This document shows positions 1,240 to 31,728 of a stretch of DNA of 64,000 nt, piece by piece. Numbering within the stretch: the stretch's first letter is position 1; every line of letters starts with the position of its first letter. Position numbers and translations under genes: made by a program. Below the pieces are notes generated by a model. That model did not search any database. It saw nothing but the letters and a program-made list of their open reading frames with translations, and was not told where the DNA came from. The stretch comes from Owenia fusiformis (taxonomy: Eukaryota > Annelida > Polychaeta > Sabellida > Oweniidae), in the NCBI GenBank assembly GCA_903813345.2, contig CAIIXF020000007.1, positions 35,060,538-35,124,537 on the forward strand. The letters are read 5' to 3'.

Positions 1240-1335
1240 CCACAGAAACCATACCTCCAGTTGATATTAGGAAACACAGGAACCAATCCACCACACATAG
1301 TTGATGTAGACTGGAGACTGGACTATTATATAAAG
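1240..1335 (+). CDS. COMMD3: COMMD3 coding exon (COMM domain start)
   Basis: This 96-bp exon encodes 32 residues in phase 0, beginning PQKPYLQLILGNTGTNPPHI and ending WRLDYYIK. It is bounded by acceptor attttcag and donor gtatgtag. The VDVDWRLDY core is the signature start of the COMM domain and matches COMMD3 better than the other nine COMMD paralogues I can recall. Confidence 0.93.
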
Positions 1336-10271: not shown

Positions 10272-10832
10272 CAAGACAAAACAATTTCAAAGTAGAATAT
10301 TATTAATGACTAAACCTTGGTCTATTCTCTCTGCCAATTCTTGCAAAATAGCAGAATAGTCTGACTATATACAATGTGACTGTGGACACTCCCTTTGTGA
10401 TATATCTTCATGTCTGGCTTGAAAGACTGATGCTGTTATAGATTATGGGCGGAATTAAATTACAATTCATCCTTCCACATGAATGGAAAAGATAATCCTT
10501 GTTTTTTAATTCATCATTCAACGTGAATGATGATCACCGTAAAAATGACATAAAATTCCTCGGAACATGAGTCGAGAGAAGCCAATGTGTAGGCTTTGGA
10601 ATCATCCCTTATTTCTCAATTAAGATATTTTCAAATTATACATATATTACCATAAAAGGCGTGATGTGCGTAAAATATATGAGGAACAGGATGACATAAG
10701 GTTCTGTGTGTAATTCAGTTGCGTCAGGCCTGATAAATTTGGTTAATGAAATAAAAGCGAGCGGCTCCAGGGAGTCTGAAAGGTGTCATTTCTTATTGTT
10801 TTGCACTGTGCAATAAATATTTATCATATTCC
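10272..10832 (+). terminator. COMMD3: COMMD3 3' UTR and candidate poly(A) signals
   Basis: After the stop codon there are AATAAA hexamers at 10750-10755 and 10812-10817. Either gives a 3' UTR of about 0.5-0.6 kb. The exact cleavage site cannot be read from sequence. Confidence 0.5.
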
Positions 10833-11080
10833 TTATGTACTCTCTATTAATACCCGAAGAGGGTCTTCTAACAGTATAATAATGCCTCTATGGCTTCATC
10901 TAGACATCGGAGTGACATATATATGTTTATATAATACTCATTAACATACTTGATAGAGGCATTGTATTTTACTGAATTCATCAAAAAATTAACTCTCTTA
11001 TCTACAATTAGAACAGATGAAATATCCAGACGTTTTTTGTGAAATTTTCAACTAAAATTACAAATATTCTCATGATTATT

Positions 11081-11495
11081 ACTCACGTGGTCCTAACTTT
11101 GACCGTTTATTTGAATTTTTGACCTACCGGATGTTTGAAAATCAAGGATTACGAGTCTCATACTGCACCGTTTTTCTTCAAACTTGCTCCATTCAAAGCA
11201 TAACACAAATCCCTTTCTGATGGTACATTATTCTCTTCAACAGAGTCGCTACTTCCACCGGCATTTTGGTCCCCAGCTGTAAGAAGGCCTTCTAACAGCT
11301 GGGGACCAAAACGCTGCTAGAACGAGGGACTCTTTACAATGAAGTAATGCACCGACAGAAAGGCAATTTTGTTCTGCTTTTAATGGTATAAGTTTGAAGA
11401 AAAACGGTGCAGTATGAGACTCGCAATCCTTGATTTTCAAGCACCTGGTAGGTCAAAAATTCAAATTAACGGTCGAAGTTAGTACCGCGTGTTAC
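11081..11495. mobile_element. ~415-bp foldback (palindromic) element
   Basis: The two halves are near-perfect inverted copies. The left arm runs from ACTCACGTGGTCCTAACTTT through ATACTGCACCGTTTTTCTTC; the right arm carries the same sequence inverted. They meet at AGAAGGCCTTCT (11282-11293). The central 60 bp (TTTTGGTCCCCAGCTG and its inverse) pair with one mismatch. No transposase is present. It is a MITE-like foldback whose transcript or single strand would form a long hairpin. I cannot name the superfamily and see no certain target duplication. Confidence 0.85.
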
Positions 11496-12014
11496 TGTGA
11501 ATGGGCCAAACAGAAGAAGAATATCTATGGTACTTTAACTAATCTTTTTATGATGAAGTAAATTAAATTTTGCCATGAAGAGGTTTTTTGTTATGGGTTA
11601 AGATGTGACATTCCAGTCTTTATGTTTTGTTAACATAACAAGGTTTTCTGATTTGTATATATATATAAAGTAGTTTTCAGTCATGCTTGAGAAAGAAGAA
11701 GAAATCGTTATCCATCATCTAATTTATACTTTCTCATGATTATAAAGAATCAGTTAGAGTTTTGGCATGGAGCAAAAATATTAATATACATGTACGCAAC
11801 TAGTACGATATGGGTATATATTTATGGAAGGTCCTCCATTCTTTTGACTCAACAAAGAAATGAATAATGATGTTATCAGAACCCATTTGTACAAGTGTTC
11901 CACTTGATTATAATACCTTCAATGTACCTGTAGTGTCTCATTTAGGCAAATTATAGCTTAAATTTTAATGTAATGTAAATATGGTAATGTGTTTACCAAT
12001 AATATAAAAAACAT

Positions 12015-12109
12015 ATATTTTATAAATGAATACATTTTGTTTATTTTTAATATTACATGGTTAATTAAATCATTGTACAACATGTGAACAAATGAATATC
12101 ACATGACAC
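12015..12109 (+). repeat. Direct repeat copy 1 (95 bp)
   Basis: The segment from ATATTTTATA through TCACATGACA recurs in direct orientation at 12541-12636. The copies share TAATATTACATG, TTAATTAAATCAT and ACAACATGTGA with scattered differences, roughly 85 percent by eye. Confidence 0.8.
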
Positions 12110-12540
12110 AATAGCAAACATACACAGCACCATGACAACAATATTTGCAAGCGTCTCACTGGCCAGAACTTGAGCATTAAATCATAATATATGGCAGCCA
12201 ATTTGTTATATTATTTAGGGACTGTGTCAATACTTCAATGTTGTCCCTAAAACGTAATAATTTACATTTAAATTTGACCCCTTCTCCCCCAAATTTTTAA
12301 GTGCATATTTGTTTATTCTTTTTCAAAGTTAAAGAGAATTTGTCAAAAAATCACAATCTCCTAACAATATTAAATATGTTTGTTTGTTAGCGTACATTGA
12401 TATATTGACTTTGTCCCCTAGACACATATATTACACCAAAAATACATACATCATCATAACTGCATAAGAAGTGTTGTTGATGGCATCGCGATTTTCTTAT
12501 TTGAATATCTTGATGGAAAGTTGATCAAAATATGAGACAA

Positions 12541-12636
12541 ATATTTTATAGTTGAATATAATTTGTTAATTTTTAATATTACATGTTTAATTAAATCATC
12601 ATACAACATGTGAGCACATGATGATCACATGACCAC
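12541..12636 (+). repeat. Direct repeat copy 2 (96 bp)
   Basis: This is the second copy of the 95-bp segment at 12015-12109, 526 bases downstream. No terminal inverted repeats or target duplication were evident, so a local segmental duplication or two copies of a short dispersed element are both possible. Confidence 0.8.
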
Positions 12637-13409
12637 ATGTTTTTCAATGATGCACCTGCTCTCATTTTCTCAACATGCAATACTGGTCACATTAAGTCAT
12701 TAACTGTGACAAGATTTTGTCAGTTATGACAGTGACATGTGGACACTGAGGGTGACATTTAGTGAACAATTGTATTAATTGTTATCACATTACCACTATT
12801 GCTGTCATTAGTCGTGTTACCTTTTTGGATTAAAGTAACTCGGAGGGATTTAATTTCAGCATTAATGATTGAGATATTTGATCAAATAGAGAGGTTATAA
12901 AGTTAAGGTACAGAAATGTCCACATTTATTGGAATTGAAAAAAGGGAAGTCCCATTTTCATTTTTTGATCATCATAAAAAGGAATACCTTGAAGTGAAGT
13001 GTGAAATGAATATTGTGACAATTTTTGTAAAGCTACTAGTCTAGCCTCCAGCCTTTCTACTCCATTTAATTTCCATGCAGGTCCAAAATCATTACACTTT
13101 TCCATTTTAACCATGAAAATTATTTCTATTTTTTATCAACCTAGTAACAGAATCCACTAAGCTAAGTGCAACTATTGTTGACTTTTATGCTGAGGGAATT
13201 AAGATTAGATACATTATATAAAAAAACAGACAAATGTATTGTTTTTTTTTGAAAGAAGAGACACACTTCCTGTAATTTGTCTCTTTAGTACAGTAAATTG
13301 CAAGTAATTGTTTGCAATTTTTTTCCAACTTTTAGTGAAATTAGTTCATTCCCATGCATAAAGTTTTAGTCATAATTGCACCCAAAGCTCACTTTTTTAA
13401 ATAAAAGCT

Positions 13410-13415
13410 TTTATT
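13410..13415 (-). terminator. BMI1: Candidate poly(A) signal for PCGF4-like gene
   Basis: TTTATT on the + strand is AATAAA on the - strand, about 725 bases after the stop codon at 14140-14142. I saw no AATAAA closer to the stop on the - strand. Its use is an inference. Confidence 0.4.
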
Positions 13416-14139
13416 TTCAATTTACCATCAAGAAGCCCTGATATAATGTAAGTCACCATATTTTGTGATCCCATATTTGCCATTTTTCCAGGTTTTGACA
13501 TTTTAAGAAAATGCCTTCACATTATCACATTTAAATTTCAGTTATTTTATAAAAACCATATGACTTCACTAGTTTTCTTTTAAAATAAATAAGATGTGTA
13601 TTCTGTCTTGAAGCGATGTGAACATGTCATTTCATGTGATGGAAATACTGTATAATAGCAACTGGGGGAGGGGCAGAAAGACATAGTGCACTATTTAACA
13701 CTATTGTCATGAGTTTCAGCACCATATATAAATGTAAAAATAGACTTACTAGAAAAAGTAGAAAAGTGTCATCATAATATTGCAAGCATTTTGTTGAATA
13801 TAATATTGCAAACAATTTCAATGCTGTTAGACTGATTAGAATCAGTTTCATAATGTTACAGTTGTTATGGACAGGAATGTTCTAAATGGATCATGATGAC
13901 AACAAATGGTCTCTATTTTGAAAGGTTTTGATTGCATATTTCATATATCAGGCACTAACCAGGAGTTTCATCAGCAAATATGTGAAACAGGAGATTTCAC
14001 CAAAATTGCTTGTTGACTTGTGGAATTTCATGACTGTTTCTACGTTAAAAGTATAATATCCATTAATTTTTTCTGATGAAACTCCTGTTTGTATAAAATA
14101 TATGGCAGATGAGTTACATAATGGTCGGGTAATTTCAAA
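13416..14139 (-). other. BMI1: Presumed PCGF4-like 3' UTR with a 15-bp inverted repeat
   Basis: CAGGAGTTTCATCAG at 13960-13974 is exactly complementary to CTGATGAAACTCCTG at 14073-14087, with a 98-base spacer. In the - strand transcript this stem would start about 50 nt after the stop codon. It may be an RNA hairpin or the ends of a small insertion. The rest shows nothing recognisable. Confidence 0.5.
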
Positions 14140-17100
14140 TCATACATCACTCCTTGTTCGTTTGTTATTCATATTTCTGCTTGAGTCAGTTGTAGAATTG
14201 TTCACATTATTTAGTATGGTAGGTGTGGTCTTCGTAATCACACTCATCATGCCATTCAGTTTCTGATACTTGGCAGGTCGGCTCGACATGTGGCCGTTCA
14301 CTTTTGGTAAAGCATTCGTTAAAGTTTTACCCATTATTCCATATTGAGGTTTTGATTGGATTAATCCATTAGGTTTTGTTGTATTATTTTCTGAATATTT
14401 TACTCCATCTTGTGGCTTCAAAGTACTATTTAGTTTTTGAATGGCAGATTTTATATAATCGGATGCCATGGGTGTTTCCTTTGGTGCCGATGGTCTGTTC
14501 AAATGGGCTGGGATTCTGTTTATTAATGGCTGTGTCCTTTTATTTGCCTGATTAGGTGGTGGGCGAATTGTATTCCTGCTTGTATTAAGTCCATTCTGTG
14601 ACGTAACAGGTGTCCTGTGGGCCATTGAGATTCCACTTGTTACCAACCAATAGGGGTTTTCAGTTGGGGTTAGAATAGGCATTTGTAGCATTTGTTTGAT
14701 GGCCATGTTCCCCCCTGAACTGGTCGGTGGGGTTGACAAAAGATACGCACTTGTCTTGCCTTTAGTTCCTGTCAGGCTGACTGGCAGAGAGATTTGTCCT
14801 CCATTCATAAGCTGCTGTTTAGGTATGCTCAGTAATTGAACTGACGCACCTGATGTTTTAATACTATCCAATAATGGAGTCATCGATTGTAAGCTTTGTG
14901 GAGTAATTAATTTTGTCTGTTCTTTCTGTGCAGCTTTACTATATATGGTATTTTTTGGAGGGGTTCGGGTTCTTGATTTCCTGGAATTAGTTAGGAGTGG
15001 GGTCTTCCGGGCCCCTGGATGTTGACTAGATACCACCCTACCTCCAATGTATGAGGAACTGGTAATTGGGGATGGGTTAGATGTGAATGAGCCAGATGTG
15101 AACTGTGGCATAGATAAAATTGGTATAGTAGGTGACATAGATTCTTCATTAATATTTTCAATATCAGTTTCACTCACTCTTTCTTTGTCACCAGTTAAAT
15201 CCTTAGGAGATGTTTTAATTGTCAAATTCAATGCATTTGTTGGTTCTGGAGTTTTGTTATTTCCTAATTGTGGCCGAGAGTCTGCTTCTGATTCCTGTTT
15301 GACAACAGGATCTTCTTCAACTTGTCGTTGAGGGATATTCAACCCATCAGTTTTCTTAAGACTGACTCCAGCGATGAGTTGAGATGCAGTTACTTTAGTT
15401 GTTGGCTGCTTTACACCAGCTGCTTTGTTCTTACTTCTTCTCTTTCTATTTTGATAACCAGATCGACCAGTTTGGGCACTCTTTGCTTTTGCTTTAGCTA
15501 CTCCAACATTTGCTGCATTAGCTGCACAGCCATCACATTTCTCTAATGATGTGAACCCAGGACTTGTAGAACCTTTGTTATTGTTATCAGGACTGCTCTC
15601 TGTGGATGAACTTTGAGCTTGTTCAGTCTCTGAGTCTTTACCAGTATCTGGTGTGCTATTTACAGATTCAGTTGTGCTTGCTATAGAAGTGTCCGGCACT
15701 GATGTTGTTGTGGAGAGGTTCATAGATGCTGGGATGGGTGTATTATAATCCATTTCTTTGAGGGCTGTGTGATTAGTATCTTGTACATGATTGTTCATCA
15801 TAGTATCATTCAGTGTTGTACCATTACTGTTAACCAATGGTAAGGTTTGGTTGTTAATGGCTGATGGGGTCAGTGTTTTGGGTATTAAATCCATTGTAGC
15901 GCTGGTTTGGTCCTTGGTGGGTTTTAACACAGTAGGTGGGGTTGGGTTGGGTATAATACCTAAGTTATTCATTGTTGATGGTGGTATTGTGTGCTGCACT
16001 TCCATTGGATTTGCAAGTTTGGTGTTTTTCATGCTGACCATAGGATGCATTCCTTGATTTTGTGGGGCTCCAATATTATGCATTTGCTCTGGAGGTATTG
16101 TGGTAGGTAAACCATTATGAAGTCCAGGGAACCTAATATTTTTCATATTTTCCAAAATATTGTTCATTGCCTGTGGATGATTTTGTATCATCGGGTTGAT
16201 TTGAGTGTGTAGATCACCATGGATACGATTCATTGTATTTTGATCGAATAAGTTCATTGCACTCGGGTTGTGTAGAAGCATATTTATTGCATTAGTGTTG
16301 CTATCCATAATGTCAATTAGAGGGTTAACTCCATATGTACTAACCAGTCGGTTAGTGTTCTCCATAATACTGTTCATAGTTTGTGTGTTATGCTGCATTA
16401 AAGCATTCAATGGAGGAAGTGCATTCTCCATTATATGGCTGGGTTGAGTTATCACAGGGTGGGCTAACATTGGATTTGGAGGTGGTAAAATATTCTCCAA
16501 GATTGGAGAGTGAATAGGACCAGCTTGAAGACCCATATCCATTTGGTGAGGAGCTGGTACTGATCTCTGAACCCCTGGTACTTGTGTGGGGTCGTAGGAA
16601 TATGCAGTATCACCATTGATCACATGGGGCACATGTGTAGCACCTATATGGGTAGATTCATGTCCAGATTGTGCTGGTTCATGAGTATTGTTTTGAGATA
16701 TATCCTGATTAGCATGAGTCACATTACAGTCAGTAAGTTCAGATTCAGGAAGAGTTTCAGATACCTGAGAATCTGGTGTACAATCCATGCCATTAGAGTC
16801 ATTGTTATCAGTTGCACTGTCTATACTATCCAAATTGATTTGCAATGGGTGATCAGTATCATCTGTCTCATCATTTGATCCACTTGGATCAGTGAACATA
16901 GGGCTTTGTGGGGGATCAGGGCTTTGAGGAGTTTCAGGACAATAATCATCATCATCATTATCCATTATATTTATGTCAACATCCTCTTCATGATCACCAT
17001 CAATATTATTTTGAGATTCAGGGTTCAAATTAGTATCCATGTGAGAGTCGGCATAATCTGTGGATTCTGTGTGTGTTTCATTTGTTATACTTATAGAGTG

Positions 17101-17631
17101 AGACTTCTCCACAGTTATGTCAGGGCCATTATGTTTATCCGTAACTGTTATTTGAGGCTCTCCCGATTGATACACACTTCCTGAATTATCACTTACTGGT
17201 AATTCAGTGTCATTTGTGGTGTTCTCTTTTGATGAAGCGATTTTATTTGAATTGTCAATAGTATCCACACAAGGTGTATCAGGTACTTTGTTTTGAATCA
17301 TAGTGTCTGCTTCTTCAGTTACATTTTCTGCTTGTTCCATATTACCGTTTTGTGTCCTTGTGTTAATATCATTGGAGGTCCCTGCTACTGATTCCTCAGT
17401 ATTTATTTTGTCCATATTGTCTGTTTTTGTATCACTGCATGATGGGGCTTCATCAACAATGATTATGTCTTTATCAATGGCACTTGAATCACTAGTTTCA
17501 GAGGCTTTCACATGAGCTTTCTCTGATGGCACTTTCTCTGAGAGTATAGGTTGGTGAGTTAACTTCATTTTCTTTGTAGGAGGAGCATCTTTAATGTCTT
17601 CTATGGAATAGAACAGTCTCAGTGGGTTGTC
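14140..17631 (-). CDS. BMI1: PCGF4-like last coding exon: RAWUL end and 1,140-residue disordered tail
   Basis: This 3492-bp uninterrupted exon (residues 220-1382) begins at acceptor tatcttcag with [14 protein letters not shown], the final RAWUL strand, then [12 protein letters not shown], which parallels the KRMKISHQ nuclear-localisation region of BMI1. The tail has regions: acidic Ser/Thr/Asp/Asn-rich (about 245-530, with [20 protein letters not shown] near 443-462 offering clustered SP/TP sites); Met/Asn/Pro-rich imperfect repeats (about 590-800); a Cys-pair and basic cluster (EKCDGCAA, then NRKRRSKNK, about 915-955); and a basic Ser/Thr/Pro C-terminus ending NNKRTRSDV. Over 3.4 kb of low-complexity coding sequence has no stop, which argues for selection. 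Several open frames on the opposite strand are compositional shadows. Confidence 0.93.
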   Translation of the reverse strand, partial: DNPLRLFYSIEDIKDAPPTKKMKLTHQPILSEKVPSEKAHVKASETSDSSAIDKDIIIVDEAPSCSDTKTDNMDKINTEESVAGTSNDINTRTQNGNMEQAENVTEEADTMIQNKVPDTPCVDTIDNSNKIASSKENTTNDTELPVSDNSGSVYQSGEPQITVTDKHNGPDITVEKSHSISITNETHTESTDYADSHMDTNLNPESQNNIDGDHEEDVDINIMDNDDDDYCPETPQSPDPPQSPMFTDPSGSNDETDDTDHPLQINLDSIDSATDNNDSNGMDCTPDSQVSETLPESELTDCNVTHANQDISQNNTHEPAQSGHESTHIGATHVPHVINGDTAYSYDPTQVPGVQRSVPAPHQMDMGLQAGPIHSPILENILPPPNPMLAHPVITQPSHIMENALPPLNALMQHNTQTMNSIMENTNRLVSTYGVNPLIDIMDSNTNAINMLLHNPSAMNLFDQNTMNRIHGDLHTQINPMIQNHPQAMNNILENMKNIRFPGLHNGLPTTIPPEQMHNIGAPQNQGMHPMVSMKNTKLANPMEVQHTIPPSTMNNLGIIPNPTPPTVLKPTKDQTSATMDLIPKTLTPSAINNQTLPLVNSNGTTLNDTMMNNHVQDTNHTALKEMDYNTPIPASMNLSTTTSVPDTSIASTTESVNSTPDTGKDSETEQAQSSSTESSPDNNNKGSTSPGFTSLEKCDGCAANAANVGVAKAKAKSAQTGRSGYQNRKRRSKNKAAGVKQPTTKVTASQLIAGVSLKKTDGLNIPQRQVEEDPVVKQESEADSRPQLGNNKTPEPTNALNLTIKTSPKDLTGDKERVSETDIENINEESMSPTIPILSMPQFTSGSFTSNPSPITSSSYIGGRVVSSQHPGARKTPLLTNSRKSRTRTPPKNTIYSKAAQKEQTKLITPQSLQSMTPLLDSIKTSGASVQLLSIPKQQLMNGGQISLPVSLTGTKGKTSAYLLSTPPTSSGGNMAIKQMLQMPILTPTENPYWLVTSGISMAHRTPVTSQNGLNTSRNTIRPPPNQANKRTQPLINRIPAHLNRPSAPKETPMASDYIKSAIQKLNSTLKPQDGVKYSENNTTKPNGLIQSKPQYGIMGKTLTNALPKVNGHMSSRPAKYQKLNGMMSVITKTTPTILNNVNNSTTDSSRNMNNKRTRSDV

Positions 17632-20600
17632 CTGAAGATAAACATCAAAACATTCATTATTTTTATGGGCTGTTAATAGCCAAACCTGTAGACTTTAATT
17701 ATAGAGGTGAACATTTATTTCAATCTGGCTTGATTTTATGGACTAGGGCTTTTTGTAATAGTAATTTATGCACCATCAAAGAAATGACTGGTACTCACCC
17801 GTCTCCATGCATAGATGTAGCAAATATCCATGAGAGTGTAATCATCCTTTAGCACTTCTTCTGTGGCCTTATAGTGCATTATATCTACCTGTAAGAGTAG
17901 AACCATATTAGGTAACATACTTCTTTTTAAGGTTTTTATTAAGTCTTTTTCTGAGAAAAACTATTTTGCTAAGTTGTAGACTATAATCAATACAGTCAAA
18001 ATGAGAGACTATTTAAATTATTTTCTAATTTTAACTTCAAGGGCATCGTTATAAGAACACAGGTGATACGCACATAAAACAATTAGTTAAAGCACATTAC
18101 AATTATTTACCTTTGACTTTTTTGGTAGCTGGAACTTCATCCTAATGAATTTCTTCAAATGGCACACAAGGAATCCTGCAGGACATAGCAGATACCTAGT
18201 TGACCAATGCTGAAACCCAGAAATTGATACATATTGCAAAATTTATACTTTTCCACCATAACAATTTCCCTAACATATAAAAAACATTTGCTAAAAATAA
18301 TTTATAAGAAAATAACAATAAAACTAAACTAAACTAAACTATACATAGAGGTATCTGATGCAGTACAATTTCCAAATATTTTGCATATTTAAATTGCATA
18401 TTTCAAAATTGTGCAACTTTCAAAATATGTATTTGAAATAGGACTGGTTAAACACTGGATTGTAGAGATTAAGTTTTTTATTTAACTAAAGTTACAGGGA
18501 ATATCAAAATTATATTCAAACATTAATAACATATTATTTTAAAGAAGAATCCTAGAACTGTGTTGAAAGAATACAGAGAACTATATTAACATTTACACTT
18601 TCTAACTTTATCTTTTTAGAAAATTGTCAACTAATTTTAAGAAATGTTGAGCACCCCTAAACTGTTTGACCTCGTATACAATTTAAATTTAAAAAAGTTA
18701 TTATTTATTTCATTTGTAAATTAAATTTTTACTATCATAAATAAAGCATTTGTCTGGGAAAATTATAAACTTAGCTTTAACTGTAATTTATATGTGACAG
18801 TAGGATTTGGCTAAGACAAATCGACACATGCCAAAGTGGTGGCCTAATGGTTTAAAAATGATGACTATCATTTTGACAATAATGAAAAATGAGGAAGTGA
18901 GTTCTAAATGTCCTCCCTGTTTTCGATTAGAAGTGAAAAATAGAAGTCTTAAATTAGCTTGTATAAAAGAGCTCTGTTATGATTAGTATAAAGAGGACCT
19001 GAAAATGACTGTGGTGAAAAATGAATGCATTAAAACCATTCATAACAAAGCTCTACAGCTGTTATCTAGGAGGATATATATCTTGTATTATGATATTTGA
19101 ATGCCTACAATTTTAACCATCAAATATTTCAAAAATACCACAACATGGAGAATTATTAATAGAGCTCAATAAATAGGGAATATTAAGGACACAGGCTCAT
19201 GAATAGTTTAAGACATAAGAAGCGACGCATAGGATAATACAACAAAGAAATTGAAAAATGACAAGACAAAGGTAGGAAAACAATTTTCAAATATATGGCG
19301 AGTAAATAGAATCCAGAAACTTTATCACTAGGCTAAAACACTCTTAAAATAAAAGTGCGATAATGGAACCAAATTCTGAGTGAGGTTTCAATAGGCCTTA
19401 GAAATTTATTTGTCCCGTATATAGCGCATAGCACTGTTAATTCAATTAGAAAGTACCGAAGTGTGTAGAAGAAGACATTAAAGTTTTTAATATATTAAGC
19501 AAGGTTAACTTAGTCAATAAATTATCCTTAAAGATAGCAACTACACTTAGATATTACTTTGATCAGTGGGCATAAAACATAAACTGAATACAGCAATCAT
19601 GTGAATCTAATATAAACAGTTATAATGACAGAACAGTGAATTGCTTGGCCCAAACCTAAATTGGCTGTCAGGTCACCCCTTTTCTGCACCTTTTCTCTCT
19701 TAACAAAGACTATTGAATCTTATTTTCTGACATTTCTCTACAATTTGGAGTGTTGACTACATGCCGGTAAAACCTATTCATTGCAGATTCCTCTCCTTTT
19801 ATGCATTTTTGAATATTCAAATGTAAACACTGTGAATATATTTGTTTGGCTATGCTGGGAATATGATGAATGTATATTGGACTTCATCATTGCCCTGTGT
19901 TCAGGATATGCAACAACACTTCTTAGGAACAAGTACAAGTCTGGCACTACCCTTGGTATCCATACACACCTATAGACATATTTGACAATTTTAACAACAT
20001 CTCGATTCTGATACTCTTTATATCTGGTAAAAATCGATACGTTTGTATTGATTGTAGCAGTGTCAATGCCTTGTGATTCTCACTGTTTAGTTATGTGTCT
20101 GACAGAGATAATCAAGATGTTTATAAAGGTCAATGTGTGATCGATCAACTTGACATACACCATAATCCACTACCCTTTGCAAAACTTTGACTGCTTTAAC
20201 TCTATAATGATAATTATTTGATCAAGCATTTGTATAAGCAGATTATTCCATCACAAAATTGTGACAATATTTTCTGGATGTGAAATCCCAGACGTTCAAA
20301 TGTCATGGAAACTAAATTAAAAATTGTCTTATATCCTATCACCATCAAAACTAAAGTGTGTTAGTTAGAGGAAAGTGTGACTTGTTCATTGGTAGTCAGA
20401 GTACATATCACAAGCAATATGAGGAAATAACCAAAGCAATCTGTGAAATATTAAACCAATTTCTCCAAGGCAAAAGTTCACATGATATTTATCTTGACTG
20501 AACAGAGGGAATGGACATGGGTAGAATTAGTGACTTCTGCAATAAACAGAGGTAGGATCATTTTCCTGGAGGAAAAATTAGAGATATATGAACTGAGGTC

Positions 20601-23600
20601 TTGTTAAATATTTTATGCCCTTCCACATTGATTTTAGGATGGTGAATGAGAAAGAAATGTAGTTTACAGGATTTACCAGTTTCTTGAGGAGGCATTATAA
20701 AGGTCAGATTTAATTTTGTAATTTGTTTTTCTTCGAAATTACTTTTTATCACAGTTGTACTGTTTGGTTAGAACATGAAACATTAACTCAATTTATGAGC
20801 AGTTCCTAGAATTAAGAATTATAAGAAACTACAAGGAGGACCTTTTAGTGCATAAGCACCTTAATATTTCAGGATATTTTAAATGGGTTTTTAAAAAATA
20901 GTGTTAAAAACATCTGAATGTGCTAACTCCACATACCTGCCTTACAGTCGCATCTATGTGTTCTTGAACAGGATTCGTCTCACTGAAAAGAAAGGCGTAC
21001 CATTGTTTTATTGTGTTTTGAAAAAAACATTATTGGGTCATATGTATTTATCCTCTGTCCGACTACAGAACTCAAAGACCCAGAATATTTGGACCAAGTT
21101 CTGTAGCCCTGTGTTCAGATGATGCATATATTTTACATGGGGACTTAATAGTGTTAAACAATGGTGTGAACCAGATGGTATGCTTAGACAGGAATCATGA
21201 TAGATACCCCACAGTCAGGCAAATCATTTTCAAATGACATAATAGCTGAAACTCATAGGCACTTAGGTTATTACTTTTAACTAGAATCAGAGAAATATTG
21301 AACTTGTTAATATTATTTTACATATCTCAAAGGGGTAAACGATATATAAAGCGGAAAGTCTCTAGATTTTAAATGCATATCCAGTCAGAACACAGTCCCA
21401 ATTTACAAACACATGAACAATATGCTGAAGTAAATGAATGGTGGTCTGTATTGAGAAATTTCTTGTGGTATAGTGTCAGACCAGAGAATTATTTATGTGT
21501 CTCTTTTTAGACATTCTGAGGGAGAAATTAAAAGAGTGAATTACTTGGAATGACTGAAGTATTCTAGAGAAAGACTGATTTTCTCATCCAGGGTGTGAAT
21601 GACATATTCCTCTTCCACCTCTCCCCTCTCCTCTACTGCTCTTGTAGATGGCCCTAAAATACAACCAATAACAAAGCTGAAGAATCTTGTAATGCTACAT
21701 AAGGGCCATAAAGGCCTTAGCCTGGACTCAAGTATAAAGTGTTATTATACAATAATGGTGAGATTTTTTCGGAAAATATTCTTTGTGACCTGAATCAAAT
21801 ATTAGAAAAAAAGGTTTGGCATACACACATAGAGCAGTCTTGGAGAACTGGTATTTTGAGTACATGTTAATTGGGAAGATATTTTCAGGGAATTACCAAT
21901 GGTAGAAGAAACTATGTAAGAAACAGATAAAACATCTTTAAGTGCTGATGGCCTCATAATTCATACATTCTCTTGAGACAATCTGGACCCCTATTAGATA
22001 CTACATTCACTATGGTAGGACATGATTAATGTAATGTAGAACATGAAGAATATAAAGAAGCATTTCAGCATTGTTATACTAACATTAACGATTTAACAGG
22101 ACTTCATATCATAATGCACTCACTGGAGATATTTGAAACTTGAAAAATACAGTGGAGCCCACGTTTTATTCAATTTTTCAATAGCTCATTAATAATAATG
22201 TTTTCAATGTTATTCAGAACCATTCAAACATTGAATTGCCTTTTGAACATTGCATTGGATATCAGTACTAAAATGGCAATGCCATTTTGTCTTTAAGTAT
22301 AAAGTTTATTCTGACAATTATATGCTTTACATAAATAAAGTTAAGGACAAAATGTATAATACAGAATAGATGATGCATTTGTTATTAAATACAAAGTCAT
22401 GTGTGGCACAATAAGCTATAACTATTTAAACACAAGTACAAGTCCTTGAGGAAATTGCAATTTAAGGCAGACCTTGGATATATAGTTAAGGAATAATGCA
22501 CTTTTATCAATTGTCAGAAAGTCCTTGCGGAATTTGCAATTTATGGCAGACCTTGGATATACTTGGTATATATATAAGTTTAAGGAATAATGCACTTTTA
22601 GCAATGGTCATATATTATCCCTTAGAATTGATGCTGAAGAAAATGGTTTAAGTCAGTAGATGTGATGCATTACAGTTTAGCTCAGGGGTATTACTGCCAG
22701 TGTTATTTTTCAATGTCAGAGTTCAAGTCATATCTCTGACATTTCACAATTTAGAAAGTGGAACTGCACTTCCTTTATTCAGGGATATATATTTTTCAAA
22801 ATTGATCTTAATAACCTTTGTAAACAGAATATCAAAGGCTTTATTTGTTGGAGATAGGATTGTTGTTATTATTGTAGCTGTTTACTGTTGAATGTCTCTT
22901 GTAAAATGTAAAATGGGTAATGTGTTTATTTTCCCACAAGTCTGCATTTATCATGTGTCAAGTGAAGTATGGTCAATCCTTTTCTAGATGCCATATAAGA
23001 ATGGTAAAGTAGAAAAATGACAGCATAATAAATGGAGCAGAACAACTGCTATGTCATATATAGTAATTAGGTAATTAAATTAGTCTAGGCATCATTAGCA
23101 ACCTGACTGATAAGGCATAAAGGTTATCTGGAATATAGCTTCAGGTTTGTTAACTCAGAGTTGATGGTACAGTAAGTTTATGGCCTACTTGGAATGTATG
23201 GGTATATTATGCTAAAACTGTGATAAATATTTTCTTAGGAATACATCATCTACATTTCATGATTTCAAATTGGGTAGATAATGATTATACAAAGGATGAT
23301 AATTTGATAGTAACACACATAGGACAATAAGTTGTGGATAATCCATTGGTCAATATACTAAATGATTGTTTAAGACATGGCCTACCTGCTTCAGGATGAT
23401 CTGCGTAAAATTCACGTCTTCGTTTCATTTCGTCTAAAAATTAAATGCAAATAATAAACAATAGAAGTAGTTGTTAACAGTAGTTTTTGATATTTTGTAT
23501 CAATAAATGGGTTGTAAATATACCAAAAAGTCACTTCTATAACATATAATATCTTGTTTTCACATTGAATGTTTCTGTCTATGCTTGCATCCAGGCACCA

Positions 23601-26600
23601 AACAAATATAATAGTAATTTCTATCTCTACTGTATCCAAAATGTTACTTTATTGATGGACATTGATTTGACATACTATGATGTTGGTATATAAATTGTTT
23701 AACAAAATGTTGATATATTTATTTGTTTTGGGTATAGGGATAGTAATGATTGGTTCTTTCTGCTCTCATATATTCTAATCATATATTTGGTGTTGTTTTG
23801 TAATTTTGTTTTCCTCAAACTCAGCTAACACAACCCTATACGATTTCTCATTTGTTAAAACCACAATTTTTTGATTGAAAAAGCTACAAAGTAAACACAC
23901 AACATTATGAGGCACGTCACAGCGACATGTAAAATTTAACAAATGAATAATGATTAAATGGAAGCGTTAATTCTAATGAAAATTTCATGAGATAGATTAT
24001 GGCATATGGCTGAGGTAGAACTTAAAACTGTTAAACCACAAATACAATTTATCTTGGCAAGTTTTGGGAAATATTCCATTTGGCTAAAACAATCATTAAA
24101 TTTATTTGCAATAAATTAGAGCATACAGTGATATAAGAGCCCACTTTAGACAAAGCATGTTTTCAATGAATATAAAAAAGATCAATCATCTAGTTAGTTC
24201 TAGTTGAGTTGGATTAAATAAGATTAACTCAATTAGCCCATGATTGTATTTTCTATTGAAAAGGAGTGGTTTATTACTTTAGCAAGATTTTTGTCACTTT
24301 GCTCCTAGAAATTACACTAATGACGGAAAAGTTGTGGAAGAAATGTCCCAGGCATGTGGTATATTTCATAATGCTTGGATTAGTTTCAATTAAGTAAACA
24401 TGTTTTATGAAATTTTATCACCTTTATTGCTGCAGACTTTGGGCTTAAATCAAAATCTCCATCAAAATAACATTTGTCATTGGGCTCTTGATCAGTAATG
24501 TTTATTCATTGTATTGTTGAAGCAAGAGCACCGGTGAATCAGTTTACCACAATGCTATGGGGAATGTTGAGCAGTACCCCATTAAAGATCAGGTCCCACC
24601 GCTGCCACCAAACTTTCATTTTTATTAATAAAGGGTCATCAATTGATCAAGATGAAGCTCCCATTGAGACTATGAGAATGAATTATTCACAAATAATATG
24701 TATAATTGACACTCTGGATTTTAGTCAGAATTGGGAAATTTTGGTTTTGATCAGCTCATTTACAGTTGTGTTGTGTTGTGAATTTATTTAGTTAATCTAA
24801 AGTTTGCCAAAAGACAAATTTCAGTCCACACATTCATATTTCTAATGATATTATTTTTGCTACCTTTGAACTACTTTGCAATGACTTGAAAAATAAATAA
24901 ATGTGTGACTTTTTGATTGATAGATGTGTAATTAATTTATTTAGTATGCATGTAAATGTTTAGCATATTTAACAATTGAAATAAATGTTTAATTTAAAAC
25001 CTTAATGTTCAGCCAATTGAGATTCTCTAACAAGTGTTCTCTTTGATGTGTAGTAATTTTCAAAATATATATAAATTAAACGAAAATGAAAATGATCTAC
25101 TACATGGCTATATCATTTTGTGCCTGAAAAGTATTCTCTCTGAATTCCTTCCATTTAGAAACTTCGTTCCAGCTGATTCCTCTCTTTAGTTTTACTCTTC
25201 TTGATTTATGATATATAATATGAATAATATGAATAGTGTTTTAAAGTTGGATTTATACTGTTTGTTTGGCATTAAATTCTTAAATGGATGCAAAATTCTA
25301 ATTTGACAAATTATGCCAAATAAATTGATAAACTTGGGCAAAATAAATTGTTGCTGTAAGGTTAGAAGAAATTCTTAACTGGGTGCAAAGTAAAAGCCAG
25401 TTCTTAGTTTGGTGCAAAAATACATTTTAAAGCAAATTCTTATTTGGGTGCAAAATACATTTTAAAGTAAATTCTTATTTGGGTGCAAAGCTTATTTGGG
25501 TGCAAAGTACATTTTAAAGCAAATTCTTATTTTGGGTGCAAAGTACATTTAATTAAAGCAAATTCTTATTTGGGTACAAAGTACATTTAATTAAAGCAAT
25601 TTCTTATTTGGGTGCAAAGTACATTTAATTAAAGCAAATTCTTATTTGTGTGCAAAGTACATTTAATTAAAGCAAATTCTTATTTGGGTGCAAAGTACAT
25701 TTAATTAAAACAAATTCTTATTTGGGTGCAAAGTACATTTAATTAAAGCAAATTCTCATTTGGGTGCAAAGTACATTTGTCAAGCAAATTCATAAATGGA
25801 TGCAAATAAGCTGGGTGCATAGTAAATTCTAAGGTAAAAATTCTAGACTAGGTGCACTTTTATTTTCAAGCCATCGCTGAGTTGCTGAATGCTTATGTAC
25901 CATTTTAAATATAAAATTGTTCTCACCTTTAAAAAGGCCAGGGACAAGTTTGTAGACTAGTGCTTGCAATTGTTTATCAGGCCTGAAAACAGTAAACAAT
26001 GAACTGATAATAAATACTAATAAAATAAATAATTCAATCGTCAAGTACTATTCAGAAAACATTATTGATACTTACACAAATACTTCAGATAATGTAGATA
26101 GGCTTCTGTCTGTCACCCTGTATATTAAACTTCTCACATTGAATATTAAATCTAACTGCAAAATAAACCCAGATTTGACCACATTTAATCCTGTTTTTAA
26201 ACTAGAGCACGAGATCCTAAACTTTTGCTTGCTTAATTTCAGTTATCATTTATATCTGGTGAAAAATTCATCAACAAATCCATGTTGTCCTCCCGTTGAT
26301 GATATACCAAATGAATGCGAAATTTCACATACATGCATGAGATATATAAAGGAAGATAAGGTAATTAATATAAACACAGACCGTAAAGTGAATACATTGT
26401 GACATGTTCTAGATCATAAATAACACCACTCTTGGCTGGCTTGTTGGGTTGGAAGACTTGAATAGTCCAAACTCAAGTCATTATAAAAACGCACATAGAG
26501 TTCTATGAATAATGTCAATATGGCCGGCTATAATGATCTATAATATCAATCTTCATTCTTTCAAATTCGGCGATGATTACTCCTTCTGAATGAGATGAAT

Positions 26601-29600
26601 GACAGGGCCATATAAATCACAATGACTGAATTCAATTCATATAAATCATTGAATAAATTGAACCGACAAATTATTTGTGGAAATTATTCAGCGGGACATA
26701 AAGCAATGTTTTGAGACAGCTGTTGTGAACAGTGCTATTCTCAGACACCAGGTTCGGAATCTCAACATACGCTATGCCCCTGGCACTTTCTTGTATTCTT
26801 CCTCCACAAATGCCGCTATGTAAACCTCTCAAAGTTGCATAACGCTGATTAGAAGAAGATTACAAGTATACTTTCACCAGTCAACTGGACTGATTTATGT
26901 CCGCGATACTATCAAGAGAGGTCGACTTCTCTCAAGGGCCCCTATATTACAAGCACTTCAGACTGCTACTGAATGTGTATCTCCGTGCTGACTTAGCAAT
27001 TTGCGAATATTCTCAAAGTACCTTTCTTTATTCTACGCTAGGAAAGGTCGCATCGACATTCAGATCAAGATACGGATAGATTTATTCGAAACTATTGTGA
27101 GGCTCATAATAAACCAAACAGTCTCCTGTAATCTTTACACAAACGCATGCATTCAGCTTCCATTTTGTTTTTATTTACGCTTTCTGTCAGCGATAATGGC
27201 TTGTATCACGGATTCCTGGGTTCCAGGGATTGTTTTGTGACATTTATGGCCAGTTAAATGTTAAACGCTGAGGTGATTCTGGAGTGGTTTCCCATATTGT
27301 AAAATCAATTGTCATTTAAGAAAAAACCAGAAGAAAACATTAGCTCGCCCGGGATATTATCCATTTATTTAATTGACTGTGGTATGAATCTTTAGGTGAT
27401 CTATTTGGTGAAAGCAATTAAGTTTAGATATGTGGTTCCAAATACATAAACAAGGCATAGAAAACCAGTTGTCTAAACACTGGACATTTACCAACACTAA
27501 CCATAGGCATGAACATTACTGGACGTTGGCAGGATTATAAATGAGATGGTTTTAGTAATCTTTACCGGCTAGTCCTCTCCTTTACACCGATAGAAAATCA
27601 GTAAAGTAAATGGATCGCCCAATGGAATGGACTTTTAGTTGTCTATTTGTAAGAAGTAATGACTTGAACCGCTAAATATCACATAGCAGTAATTAAGCCT
27701 CATCATGACCGACCCGTCCATCAACAAGAGAGTACTCGATAGTATTACCATGGTAACCCCATCAATCTCGGGAAGAATTCTCCAACATATCAACCTCACT
27801 TCAAACCATCGTGCACACAGGCGCCACTCGCTAATAACCACCATTTTGCTTTTTAAATTGGAAATGGAGATCGATGTGATTTTTGAATGAACATTCCAAG
27901 CAGGTGCTACAGCAAACAGAGCAAGACTTCTATCAAGGTACTTGCTATTTGATTCTTCTTTATACACCTACTAGGCTATATATCTCAAATACAAATTTCG
28001 ATAATGCATACGTTTTATTTTCTCGTATGACTAACTCAGATTCAGTCACGGTCATCTTTCATCGTAAAAAGTCAAACATGCAAAATGATTTTTGTGGCAT
28101 CACTTGTTTATATACAAAAACATGGCAACGGAAGCACTGTTGCTATGGATATCCATGTTTTCAATAGGATATTTCTGTCCAAGTGTATGACAACATTATT
28201 TTGACTTTGTGGTATCCAATCCCGTCACCCCTTCCTACAAATGTATCCCTCTATGAACAAGTTACAATGCCGTAAGTGTAAAGTAAACGTATCTGACCAC
28301 ACATACCGTATACTAGTGTTACATTGGCCAATATAACAAATTTCTTTTAATTATTAAATTTGGTCAAAAAGTAAATTGATGAGTAGGCCCTTTCTTTATC
28401 CAGTTCCTCCTTATCAACCCGCTTGGCCCTTCAATAACATTTATGCAACATGAACAACTTGAGATTGTAACTAGTCACCCTTATGACTGTTAAGCGCATT
28501 GTCTTTTGATCATTGTTGAAATGTAATATTGCAATGCAGTATGATGGAGGCGGTGTTTCTTTCGAACATGTACGGGAATAACACGCCGAATGTTAAAACA
28601 TTTTTTAGTTCGTGAAATCAAATATTTTATTATAAATCGAAGCAAGCGAACATAACTCCTAAAGGCGATTCCCTAACATTTTGCAGTTAACTTATTTAAA
28701 AACTGGCGTTTAAGAAGCATCGATTTTTGAAAAAAGAAGGGCAATTTTCTGAAATCTGAAAAGACCCACTTTTCCTGAAAAGGAAAAGATTTGTCAATCA
28801 CCCCCTGCATTTCGTATGCTCCTTTCCACGCGTTCACTTTAATTTCCTGAATTTAATGATAATCCCGACACTGCCTAACAGTCGATCTGGTTTTAGCAAA
28901 GAGCTCGGTCGTTCTCCGTTTAAAACGCCCCAGAAATTCTATGAAAGAACCGTATAGATAAAGCTTCCTTTATTTTGGAGTAGTGAATTTCTGTTAATTG
29001 GGAAGAACCAACCGATTGTGACCACATACTTGCAATGCGCCTTATATTACAGGCTCTTGTGTTCAGTTCCCTGAGTCTATAAATGCCATCTTAAAATGAA
29101 AGCATACCACAAAAGACAAAGACACTATTTTAAAGCCTTGCGAATGTTCACCTGTTCACGCATTGACAAAAATGTATACAATTTCATGTAACCGTCTGAA
29201 GATAGTGATTATATATTTTGAAAGTGTTGTTGTAAACCCAGCTTTATTTCCACGTGTGTTAAAGATTGTCACTGTCGTAATTAATGTGTAACCAAAGATA
29301 AGAGCTACATGTGAAGTGTTACGGTTCTTGATTATGATAACGTTAATGAAAATATAGAAACACCGCCCCTCCCTCCCTTACATTATTAGGAAAATAGAAT
29401 TATACTAAGCAAAACATTACCTTAGATTGACATGCGGCTTTGTCTTATGGACCATTACATCGCATATTGGACAGTATTCACAGCTTTTCAGGTAGCTCAC
29501 TATACACGTTTTACAAACTGAAAAAATAAAAAATACTGATTTATGTTTGACAGTCAGTGGTGGAGACTTGATGTGGTGATGAGGGTACGGTGATATAGTA

Positions 29601-31728
29601 AACTAAACTGTCATATGGGCCCCATAAATATAACAAATAATATCTTGAAAATGCAAATTGCAGAGACTGGCTAGAATTGTGTTTTATCAGAATTTGTGCG
29701 TCCAATACTTTTTCAATCGACCTCGTCTCTCCAATGTGCTCATAGCGTGTCATACATGTCATACGGTTTTAGGAATTTAGGTTTAACCTAAAGAGGTATT
29801 TGATACAAGTCATATCCAGTTATTTCGAAACCCACATCGTACCTTCAGTCATTCATGCTTATCAAACTGTTAAACAAGCATATTCCTTCACTCGTACAAC
29901 CAGAAAGTGGCTCTCAAACTTGTAATTGTACAAAAGTGACAGTATATCTCTCTATGCATATATGTAATAGTCCAATGAATGATGTTTGCACATTATTTAC
30001 AATGTATGTGTGTACATGATACAAATAGAATATATAGAGATTATCCTATATGAGGTTCAGGATATTGGGATTATCCCGAGGCAAATATAATATATTTGCC
30101 CGAGGGCCGCAGGTCCCGAGGGAAAATATATTATATTGGCCAAGGGATAATCCCAATATCCTGAACCGACTATAGGATAATATGTTTATCCCATACCAAT
30201 CTTGGTCATCTGGTTCACATTGTTCAATCGTGGAAATATTTTAGAATATTCATGTCCAGTTTTGTTTTCTTGGTCGTGGGCGGATTTCCTGTTCTCTCAC
30301 ATATTCCCACATTTATTTTCTCGAATTTTTGATTGATTAAGTGGATGCTCCTTTCCTTTTTTAAACCATCAAACAGATCCCGATTGTCTGTGTTTTCTCC
30401 ATTGTCGTTTACAGTCATTACGCGAACGTTACAAATTATGAACAAATATGCGAGCGGCGATTATGACGTAGCGGGCAGATATACTATATCTGCCCGCTCG
30501 GAGCGGGACGTAAAGCTATATTTGCCCGCTGATGAAAATATAAGTTTTTACAAACCGGCTTTATGTACCTGTAACACGTCTAAGTATGGGATAAAAAAAT
30601 ATACGATTCATATTAACTTTCTATTTTTACACTTCGAGATACGATAGACGCTTAAATTGCTATTTGAATGTTTCATGTTTTATTGCGGTTAATGTCTTTC
30701 AAAATGACTTTACTTGCGTCATAAGGACTTGCTGTGCAGAGATACAGAGTTCCACGGACAATTTATTCCCTTTTAGTATCGGGCGTGAATATCAACATTC
30801 GACAACATTGGCACATACAATTTTGAGTAATAAATTTATCCCAGTGTTCAACATGTCAAGGATGACATATATGATGTTATTTTATGTTTATATAAAACAT
30901 ATCGTGGGTGAACAGAGAACAAATGATTTATGTATACGTCGACAGAATAAACTGTATGGTGGCCTTATTTACCGACAGTCGCTGTACTGAATAAAACACA
31001 AGAGGTCGCATGTGTTCGAGCCGCCGAAGTTGCGTGAACCTGTCAGAGTAATAATTCCAACAAAGATAACACGTCAAAAGATTTCCATAGTTTTTATGCC
31101 TGAGTGTTCTCTTTGTTTCTTTAGAATATGTTTAATCTAAAATCAGATGGTAGCATCGTTTCATTGAGTAGTTCACCGGTTGGAATCCTGACACGCGCTT
31201 GTGTATAGCCGGCTTAATCTGGGTGTATTTTTTCTCTCGATATTTTCAGCACGTTCTATTGTAGGCCAAGCTTGAGGTTACAACTGAAAGTGTAACAGGA
31301 ACTCCTCGTATTCACTGTTCAATAGGTGCAATGCTATTAATTCAGAATGTTTTCCGCAATGCGCGAAATAAAGAGGTCGTCATATATATGCATATGCTAA
31401 CAAACAATAAATCACTTTGGATGTAGCCGGACATCTCGAGATCCCTCCGAATGTTGCTTCTAGTGATAAACACGTCACGTCACGACTAGGTTTACCTTTT
31501 ACATTCCATTTATAAGCAATAGTCCCGTTCAATAATAAAAATAATAGTCCAACCTGCATTCCCAAAATGCTCAATCACCTTGCACCTTACCAAGTATTAT
31601 GTAATCCAGTACTTACATGAATGCAGACACTCCACTATGGTAGTAGCATCCACTAAGTATCCTCCGCAAAGTACGCACATAAGATGGGGGTTCAACTCCG
31701 TGATCGGTATTAGGGTTGTCCGGTGCAT
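14140..31728 (-). CDS. BMI1: Polycomb RING finger protein PCGF4/BMI1-like with Psc-like giant disordered tail (nine coding exons)
   Basis: Nine exons join in phase with GT/AG borders (31728-31617, 29517-29421, 25982-25927, 23433-23386, 21653-21545, 20982-20937, 18209-18111, 17888-17799, 17631-14140). They encode 4149 bp, 1382 residues. Residues 1-70 are the RING: ligands C18, C21, C34, H36, C39, C42, C53 and C56 fall at the human BMI1 positions. Next come the linker ([28 protein letters not shown]) and, at about 128-230, the RAWUL ubiquitin-like domain ([44 protein letters not shown]). A basic NLS-like KKMK follows. Residues 245-1382 are low complexity. In animals this class pairs with RING1 in PRC1 to ubiquitinate H2A; RAWUL binds PHC/Ph. 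It is pro-orthologous to vertebrate PCGF2/PCGF4 and built like Drosophila Psc/Su(z)2. The start is the BMI1-conserved MHRTT. Confidence 0.95.
17799..17888 (-). CDS. BMI1: PCGF4-like exon: RAWUL domain, second part
   Basis: This 90-bp phase-0 exon (residues 190-219) encodes [18 protein letters not shown] then [12 protein letters not shown]. It matches BMI1 [20 protein letters not shown] followed by YIYTWRR. Acceptor ctcttacag, donor gtgagt. Confidence 0.96.
18111..18209 (-). CDS. BMI1: PCGF4-like exon: RAWUL domain, first part
   Basis: This 99-bp phase-0 exon (residues 157-189) encodes [20 protein letters not shown], then [13 protein letters not shown]. It corresponds to BMI1 [20 protein letters not shown] and SKMDIP. 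Acceptor gggtttcag, donor gtaaat. Confidence 0.96.
18210..20936 (-). other. PCGF4-like intron 6
   Basis: This 2.7-kb intron is AT-rich and CpG-poor. It contains one short run of ACTAA units at about 18318-18340. I see no other exon, RNA gene or mobile element. Confidence 0.6.
20937..20982 (-). CDS. BMI1: PCGF4-like small exon (RAWUL linker)
   Basis: This 46-bp exon supplies the third base of N141 and residues 142-156, [15 protein letters not shown]. Its borders (cttttcag, gtatgt) and phases (2 in, 0 out) fit the neighbouring exons exactly. The residues fall in the variable loop of RAWUL, where family conservation is low, so the call rests on phase, splice sites and position. Confidence 0.85.
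21545..21653 (-). CDS. BMI1: PCGF4-like exon: acidic linker and RAWUL start
   Basis: This 109-bp exon (residues 105-141) encodes [20 protein letters not shown], then [15 protein letters not shown]. It matches the BMI1 DRGEV linker and the DDEIISLSIEF first strand of RAWUL. Acceptor attttag, donor gtaatt; phases 1 in and 2 out. Confidence 0.94.
21654..23385 (-). other. PCGF4-like intron 4
   Basis: This 1.7-kb intron contains the tandem duplication at 22440-22610 and otherwise AT-rich, CpG-poor sequence with nothing recognisable. Confidence 0.6.
22440..22610. repeat. Two-copy tandem duplication (~80 bp)
   Basis: Copy 1 (22440-22516) and copy 2 (22519-22610) both contain AAGTCCTTG, TTGCAATTTA, GGCAGACCTTGGATATA and AAGGAATAATGCACTTTTA in order. 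Copy 2 has a short extra TA-rich insert. It is a recent local duplication within the intron. Confidence 0.88.
23386..23433 (-). CDS. BMI1: PCGF4-like small exon (RING-RAWUL linker helix)
   Basis: This 48-bp exon (with split D89, residues 90-104, and the first base of G105) encodes [15 protein letters not shown], matching BMI1 EMKRRRDFYAAHPSA. Acceptor atttttag, donor gtaggc; phases 1 in and 1 out. Confidence 0.95.
23434..25926 (-). other. PCGF4-like intron 3
   Basis: This 2.5-kb intron carries a 38-bp tandem array near its 5' end (25375-25830). The rest is AT-rich and strongly CpG-depleted: by eye I count three CpG in 24001-24840. Confidence 0.7.
25375..25830. repeat. 38-bp tandem array in PCGF4-like intron 3
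   Basis: About eleven copies of a 38-bp unit of the form AAATTCTTATTTGGGTGCAA then AGTACATTTAATTAAAGC. The inner copies are nearly identical and the outer ones shortened and diverged. In transcript orientation it begins about 100 nt after the donor of the preceding coding exon. Confidence 0.93.
25927..25982 (-). CDS. BMI1: PCGF4-like exon (post-RING linker)
   Basis: This 56-bp exon completes R70 and encodes [18 protein letters not shown] (71-88), matching BMI1 [18 protein letters not shown] almost residue for residue. Acceptor tgttttcag, donor gtgaga. Confidence 0.97.
25983..29420 (-). other. PCGF4-like intron 2
   Basis: This 3.4-kb intron contains the change from CpG-poor to CpG-normal sequence near 26.4 kb. 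It has several open frames of 60-110 codons on both strands (for example 27635-27967), but none shows recognisable protein features. No repeat arrays were seen. Confidence 0.6.
29421..29517 (-). CDS. BMI1: PCGF4-like exon: RING second half
   Basis: This 97-bp exon completes F38 and encodes [20 protein letters not shown] (39-58), then [11 protein letters not shown] and the first two bases of R70. Ligands C39, C42, C53 and C56 are present. BMI1 K62 is kept, and R64, a nucleosome-facing residue in the BMI1 RING, is K here. Acceptor ttttttcag, donor gtaatg. Confidence 0.97.
30040..30181. mobile_element. 142-bp foldback element
   Basis: The left arm (ATTATCCTATATGAGGTTCA continuing GGATATTGGGATTATCCC) and the right arm (GGGATAATCCCAATATCCTG continuing AACCGACTATAGGATAAT) are inverted copies with few mismatches. 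They enclose a GC-rich centre with TTTGCCCGAGGGCC. It directly abuts the inverted-repeat-bounded segment to its right, so it may be one end of a larger element. Confidence 0.8.
30185..30595. mobile_element. Inverted-repeat-bounded segment with internal hairpin and ORF
   Basis: TTTATCCCATAC at 30185-30196 is exactly inverted at 30584-30595. Inside are a minus-strand ORF (30224-30418) and a perfect 14-bp hairpin, AGCGGGCAGATATA and its complement around one base (30470-30498). A partial third copy of the arm (AGCTATATTTGCCCGCT) follows at about 30514-30530. It is probably part of the same mobile element as the adjacent foldback. Confidence 0.55.
30224..30445 (-). CDS. Possible tyrosine-recombinase-type N-terminal fragment
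   Basis: The open frame has ATG codons at 30445 and 30418. From the second it reads 64 residues, ending [20 protein letters not shown] then LKYFHD and a stop. The stretch [15 protein letters not shown] resembles the start of the N-terminal SAM-like (core-binding) region of animal Crypton/KIAA1958-type tyrosine recombinases, where N-T-x-x-K-T-x-x-D-x-x-x-F patterns are common. No catalytic R-H-R-Y part is present, so it is at best a truncated remnant. The resemblance is from memory and weak. Confidence 0.3.
   Translation of the reverse strand: MFIICNVRVMTVNDNGENTDNRDLFDGLKKERSIHLINQKFEKINVGICERTGNPPTTKKTKLDMNILKYFHD
31617..31728 (-). CDS. BMI1: PCGF4-like first coding exon: start codon and RING first half
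   Basis: The ATG at 31726-31728 opens [20 protein letters not shown], then [17 protein letters not shown] and the first base of F38. BMI1 reads [20 protein letters not shown] at the same positions. Ligands C18, C21, C34 and H36 are present. The donor is gtaagt. An acceptor (gcctctag) lies just one base before the ATG, so the 5' UTR must come from at least one upstream exon, as in human BMI1, whose first exon is non-coding. Confidence 0.97.

Follow-up and report, generated by a model that had tools for sequence, protein, structure and literature searches.

The question raised by this locus of the annelid Owenia fusiformis is whether a BMI1-type protein that ends in a very long tail can use it in the manner of Drosophila PSC. 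RING and RAWUL domains place PCGF2/4 proteins in canonical PRC1, and in Drosophila PSC the core is followed by a tail of over 1,000 residues, one feature of which is its regularly spaced tyrosines. Beh, Colwell and Francis 2012 reportedly found PSC tails from chordates to arthropods, long, disordered and poorly conserved in sequence; extended acidic stretches are said to mark the less active of these tails, the active ones being without them. Long PSC-type tails beyond arthropods are reportedly already in print. Reviews describe the PSC tail as disordered, rich in positive charge and tied to compaction, a role that falls to CBX proteins in mammals (PMC7697839, PMC8594731, PMC4584315); one of them presents the positively charged disordered region common to CBX2 and Psc as crucial for in vitro compaction (PMC7697839), and a further paper mentions a diptera-specific domain of fly PSC that binds cyclin B (PMC10638273). 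In a literature search of partial coverage, none of the matches listed describes, in its title or the beginning of its abstract, a tail of this type on PCGF2/4 or PSC proteins other than those of flies and vertebrates, which is not proof that such tails have gone undescribed.

We rebuilt the gene from the window, that is, the whole stretch of 64,000 nucleotides analysed here. It runs on the minus strand from 31728 to 14140, and its nine coding exons (Table 1) encode 1,382 residues, with a single stop in the spliced frame, at its end. Eight of the exons came from stop-to-stop frames; the ninth, exon 6, was sought between 21544 and 18212 by phase fit, and is the top one of five candidates that passed a filter on phase, donor and acceptor, with the donor CAG/GTATGT and a 70% pyrimidine tract. 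The earlier note had proposed nine phase-matched exons, the last one open over 3.49 kb and coding for a tail of about 1,140 residues; the ends of the rebuilt gene agree with the coordinates given there, the phases join, 8/8 introns have GT-AG ends, and the tail measures 1,149 residues when counted from residue 234. Exon 9 begins with residues 220-233, which close the folded part and of which 220-228 still lie inside the Pfam RAWUL match. The ATG in exon 1 is preceded, one base upstream, by the end of an acceptor-like CTCTAG, so that an extra 5' non-coding exon ahead of exon 1 is likely. As far as the sequence goes, the BMI1-type gene is apparently intact; human BMI1 presumably has nine coding exons as well, with the same last-exon junction. 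Tandem arrays, chiefly of 38-base units, lie at 25393-25806, in the intron that separates coding exon 3 from coding exon 4.

Table 1. Coding exons of the gene and segments of the tail, in positions of the window; residues are those of the predicted protein.
Feature	Positions	Strand	Description
Coding exon 1	31617-31728	minus	start codon and first half of RING finger
Coding exon 2	29421-29517	minus	second half of RING finger
Coding exon 3	25927-25982	minus	segment after RING
Coding exon 4	23386-23433	minus	between exon 3 (post-RING segment) and the exon 5 linker
Coding exon 5	21545-21653	minus	linker leading to RAWUL
Coding exon 6	20937-20982	minus	46-base linker exon, least certain of the nine
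Coding exon 7	18111-18209	minus	first part of RAWUL
Coding exon 8	17799-17888	minus	second part of RAWUL; 3-residue insertion relative to BMI1
Coding exon 9	14140-17631	minus	3,492 bases: 14 residues of the folded part, 1,149-residue tail, stop
Tail part 1, residues 234-566	16591-17589	minus	acidic, net -56
Acidic core, residues 423-480	16849-17022	minus	58 residues; 20 D/E, no K/R
Tail part 2, residues 567-929	15502-16590	minus	363 residues; net -13, Asn/Met-rich
Predicted helices, residues 624-715	16144-16419	minus	sole tail helices in the single-sequence model; very low confidence
Tail part 3, residues 930-1382	14143-15501	minus	453 residues; basic, net +37
Strongest basic patch, residues 930-979	15352-15501	minus	14 K/R, no D/E

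Does the long last exon code for protein? It is open for 1,163 codons (log10 P(open) of about -33), and we discarded a chance open frame as its explanation, since none of 500 sequences simulated with its dinucleotide composition had a frame longer than 191 codons; the other five frames of the exon hold 46 to 123 stops each. Three-base periodicity ranges from 2.7 to 13.6 across the exon, and all 11 windows of 300 bases exceed the maximum of 2.49 found among 37 control windows (17901-29000, mostly intron but including exons 3-7), the lowest of them only narrowly. Codon usage correlates at 0.63-0.75 among the three thirds of exon 9, as against 0.30-0.46 between exon 9 and exons 1-8 (0.43 for a control shifted by one base), and GC3 is 0.30 in exon 9 versus 0.43 in exons 1-8; one has to remember that exons 1-8 supply only 219 codons for both comparisons. 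From its open length and three-base periodicity, the tail looks coding. A part of the exon might still be spliced out, or the transcript might end earlier, and the tail would then be shorter, a situation that we hold to be highly improbable. Donor-like GTRAG sites are found at 17196, 15434 and 15177, and when the rule is relaxed far enough for all 8 real donors and all 8 real acceptors of the gene to pass, exon 9 shows 78 donors and 8 acceptors, which form 409 pairs, 113 of them frame-keeping; the open frame and the periodicity, however, continue through the entire exon. Under a strict rule, one acceptor-like site and three pairs, all frame-shifting, are left in exon 9, while 3.5 kb of largely intronic sequence has 7 acceptors; as evidence against an internal splice this is weak, because the strict rule admits just 3/8 real donors and 5/8 real acceptors and so misses most of the former and 3/8 of the latter.

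The folded core is recognised by Pfam as RAWUL (PF16207, E=4.4e-19, profile positions 1-65 of 65) and as RING (PF13923, 3.1e-08; PF00097, 1e-07), and its top solved chain is human BMI1 (9dby_K, E=1.6e-87), with which residues 1-102 align without gaps. The BMI1 spacing of the zinc ligands is therefore kept: C18, C21, C34, H36, C39, C42, C53 and C56, which we take to be the eight RING ligands, all coincide with BMI1, and the core has one extra cysteine, C50. Over aligned pairs, core identity amounts to 140/237 (59%) with BMI1, 129/236 (55%) with PCGF2, 99/223 (44%) with fly Psc, 81/216 with PCGF1, 80/215 with PCGF3, 74/218 with PCGF6 and 70/220 with PCGF5 (32-38% for these last four), and 33/113 with RING2, the rows of PCGF2, 3, 6, part of 5, fly Psc and RING2 being provisional sequences. 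In an unrooted tree of seven rows, the protein clusters with BMI1 and PCGF2 (100/99); given this grouping and the low identities, we rejected PCGF1, 3, 5 or 6 as its identity. When the provisional fly Psc and RING2 are added (nine rows), PCGF1, 3, 5 and 6 form a separate group (87/99), and the place of the protein among BMI1, PCGF2 and Psc is unsupported (32/58). Membership of the core in the PCGF2/4 class is thus supported by the sequence. A RING and a RAWUL with the ligand spacing of BMI1, as well as the BMI1/PCGF4 class itself, had been read from the letters alone, and both hold; a position among PCGF1, 3, 5 or 6, which the earlier note had named as an outcome that would overturn the class, is not what the seven-row tree gives.

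Within the class, the relationship to fly Psc is less clear-cut. The RAWUL insertion of three residues is absent from BMI1, two extra residues stand at the same place in fly Psc, and an RDxP[LM]R motif follows RAWUL in both the protein and Psc (on the provisional fly sequence in both cases); this insertion and motif may hint at protostome kinship, although the tree does not support pairing the protein with Psc despite them. A published analysis likewise places the split of PCGF2/4 from PCGF1, 3, 5 and 6 at the root of animals (PMC10638273).

Little can be said about the neighbourhood of the gene. A Pfam scan of three frames each in 31727-61728 (minus), 34001-64000 (plus) and 1-14140 (both strands), with stops read as X and a cut-off of E 0.01 in one scan and 0.05 in the others, found no neighbouring family above its curated cut-off, with one sub-threshold match to DUF5605 (E=0.0031, 17.9 bits versus 25); this silence means little, as two control frames spanning the RING exons already identified were empty too and short exons escape the scan. 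No second gene was recognised upstream (32000-64000), where genes may be present all the same, and the scan of the flanks, with the same weakness for short exons, gave no sign of COMMD3, which we take to be the neighbour gene of BMI1 in vertebrates. Rfam at gathering scores and ARAGORN returned nothing in the window, and no relatives were confirmed in viral contigs or prokaryote genomes (2 and 9 pattern matches, respectively). Tandem arrays with units of 22 and 27 bases (CCCCCACTTTGGCTACAGTCCT-like) occupy 6811-7813, in a 2-kb block with GC up to 44% and a strong negative GC skew; another array, with 28-base units (AATACAGGGTGTTCCATTTGTTAAAAGA-like), lies at 8330-8700, and long, probably spurious open frames overlap on both strands a degenerate 5-base (ACAGT) repeat at 5313-5567.

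The composition of the tail is where the comparison with PSC becomes delicate. Its 91 K/R and 123 D/E give the whole tail a net charge of -32 and a pI of 5.5, and the enrichment in positive charge that is a PSC-type feature is found in residues 930-1382 only. The charges are strongly segregated: the best two-way split of the tail exceeds all 5,000 permutations, and so do the extreme windows of 50 residues (-19 and +14, the lowest permuted window being -16); the segment ends in Table 1 were picked on the same data, a choice that is taken into account when the split is tested by permutation, but not in the segment totals. On this layout, the patch at residues 930-979 is the best candidate for a DNA-binding segment. 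The tail has only 16 tyrosines among its 1,149 residues (2 in the middle part), and no regular spacing is evident.

Is this tail ordered anywhere? A Pfam search of exon 9 is empty up to E=1, and a single-sequence AlphaFold2 model of it has a mean pLDDT of 32, with 1,156 of 1,163 residues under 50, although a low pLDDT from a single-sequence prediction says little on disorder. By FoldIndex, 718 of 1,100 windows in the tail score negative, but so do 86 of 183 in the folded part, and the index separates the two poorly. Helices of four or more residues are confined to residues 405-496 of the exon (624-715 of the protein), in blocks with pLDDT 39-47; they sit in a FoldIndex-positive region (+0.041 for the middle part as a whole) and overlap a weak internal repeat of residues 580-729, whose score of 51 was reached by 1% of 300 shuffles (maximum 55). 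Taking these predictions as they are, the tail is probably largely disordered.

BMI1/PCGF4 and MEL18/PCGF2 have the RING and the RAWUL in common with this protein, and the alignment with BMI1 extends through the post-RAWUL KKMKLTHQ, near the start of tail part 1; in the 326-residue solved chain of BMI1, however, roughly 90 residues follow the core. Drosophila PSC resembles the protein in having a PCGF2/4-type core and then a long tail, but differs in its 44% core identity, calculated on a provisional fly sequence, in the lack of a supported sister grouping, in its opposite overall charge and in the tyrosine-patterned segment of its tail, of which none is evident here. The description of the tail as Psc-like, therefore, stands for its length and probably for its disorder, and fails for its charge (-32 versus the positive charge of PSC); given the acidic front part, a match to the fly tail, and with it a Psc-like mechanism, appears doubtful. 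The tails of Beh, Colwell and Francis 2012 are reportedly likewise long and borne by PSC-type proteins, the active ones being without an extended acidic stretch, whereas this tail has one (the 50-residue window of -19); by that rule, although not by its exact threshold, the tail would be predicted to be less active than the active PSC-type tails. The compaction region of CBX2/M33 is comparable as a disordered region of a PRC1 subunit whose positive charge is tied to compaction, according to reviews (PMC7697839, PMC8594731), but it belongs to another subunit, and net positive charge is here only distal, with an acidic part before it.

What the sequence itself shows is how the gene is built, to which class it belongs, that the tail carries a coding signal and how its charges are laid out; every functional step beyond this we infer. 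The reading to which we lean, and which we consider rather probable, is that the gene encodes a PCGF2/4 (BMI1/Psc) subunit of canonical PRC1 whose tail would not match that of PSC but act as its weaker or regulated counterpart. Judging by the conserved domains, the RING together with RING1 would act as a histone H2A ubiquitin ligase and the RAWUL would bind a Polyhomeotic-type subunit; the distal basic part (930-1382, above all 930-979) is expected to contact DNA or nucleosomes and to contribute to chromatin bridging, a binding that the acidic proximal part (234-566) may restrain or tune. The negative net charge, the acidic stretch of the kind reportedly typical of less active tails, the few tyrosines, the weak evidence for disorder and a codon usage unlike that of exons 1-8 weigh against such a regulated tail. 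A full functional equivalent of the C-terminal region of Drosophila PSC, with strong compaction and inhibition of remodelling on its own, would account for a long tail after RAWUL, for a basic distal part of 453 residues with +14 in 50 residues and for the breadth of such tails reported by Beh et al. 2012; we find it unlikely, since the net charge is -32 and 58 consecutive residues contain 20 D/E and no K/R, as opposed to the positive charge given for PSC in the reviews cited above.

Two further readings take the tail away from chromatin or from function. As an acidic sequence with 25 Ser/Thr-Pro sites and matches to short motifs (SUMO-interaction-like IIIVDE, sumoylation-like VKQE and CtBP-like PKDLT), the tail could mainly be a protein-interaction scaffold that brings in co-repressors and hardly acts on chromatin directly, but short motifs arise by chance in 1,149 residues, and we deem this very unlikely. 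That the tail evolves nearly freely, with little function past the first residues after RAWUL, would agree with its lack of a Pfam family match; we regard it as barely plausible, because drift alone is not expected to keep an intact frame and so strongly segregated a charge. A more specific form of regulation can also be imagined, quite unlikely as it is: the acidic block next to the core would compete with DNA for the distal basic block, the middle, which is rich in Asn and Met, weakly repeated and perhaps helical (624-715), would self-associate, and compaction by this PRC1 would be held back by autoinhibition until a modification or a binding event relieved it. In the passages on the PSC tail cited above, an intramolecular restraint of this kind is not described.

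Long-tailed proteins of this type are already known, and the charge layout is the part worth testing. This gene alone does not settle when long PCGF2/4 tails arose, nor does it by itself carry the inference of the earlier note that they are no arthropod novelty, being either ancestral to protostomes or bilaterians and lost in vertebrates, or gained twice. With its separate acidic and basic blocks, the tail lends itself to deletions that would show cleanly whether acidic stretches dampen such tails; and if the tail is functional, it would be another case of a disordered PRC1 region that keeps, loses or regulates compaction while its sequence drifts.
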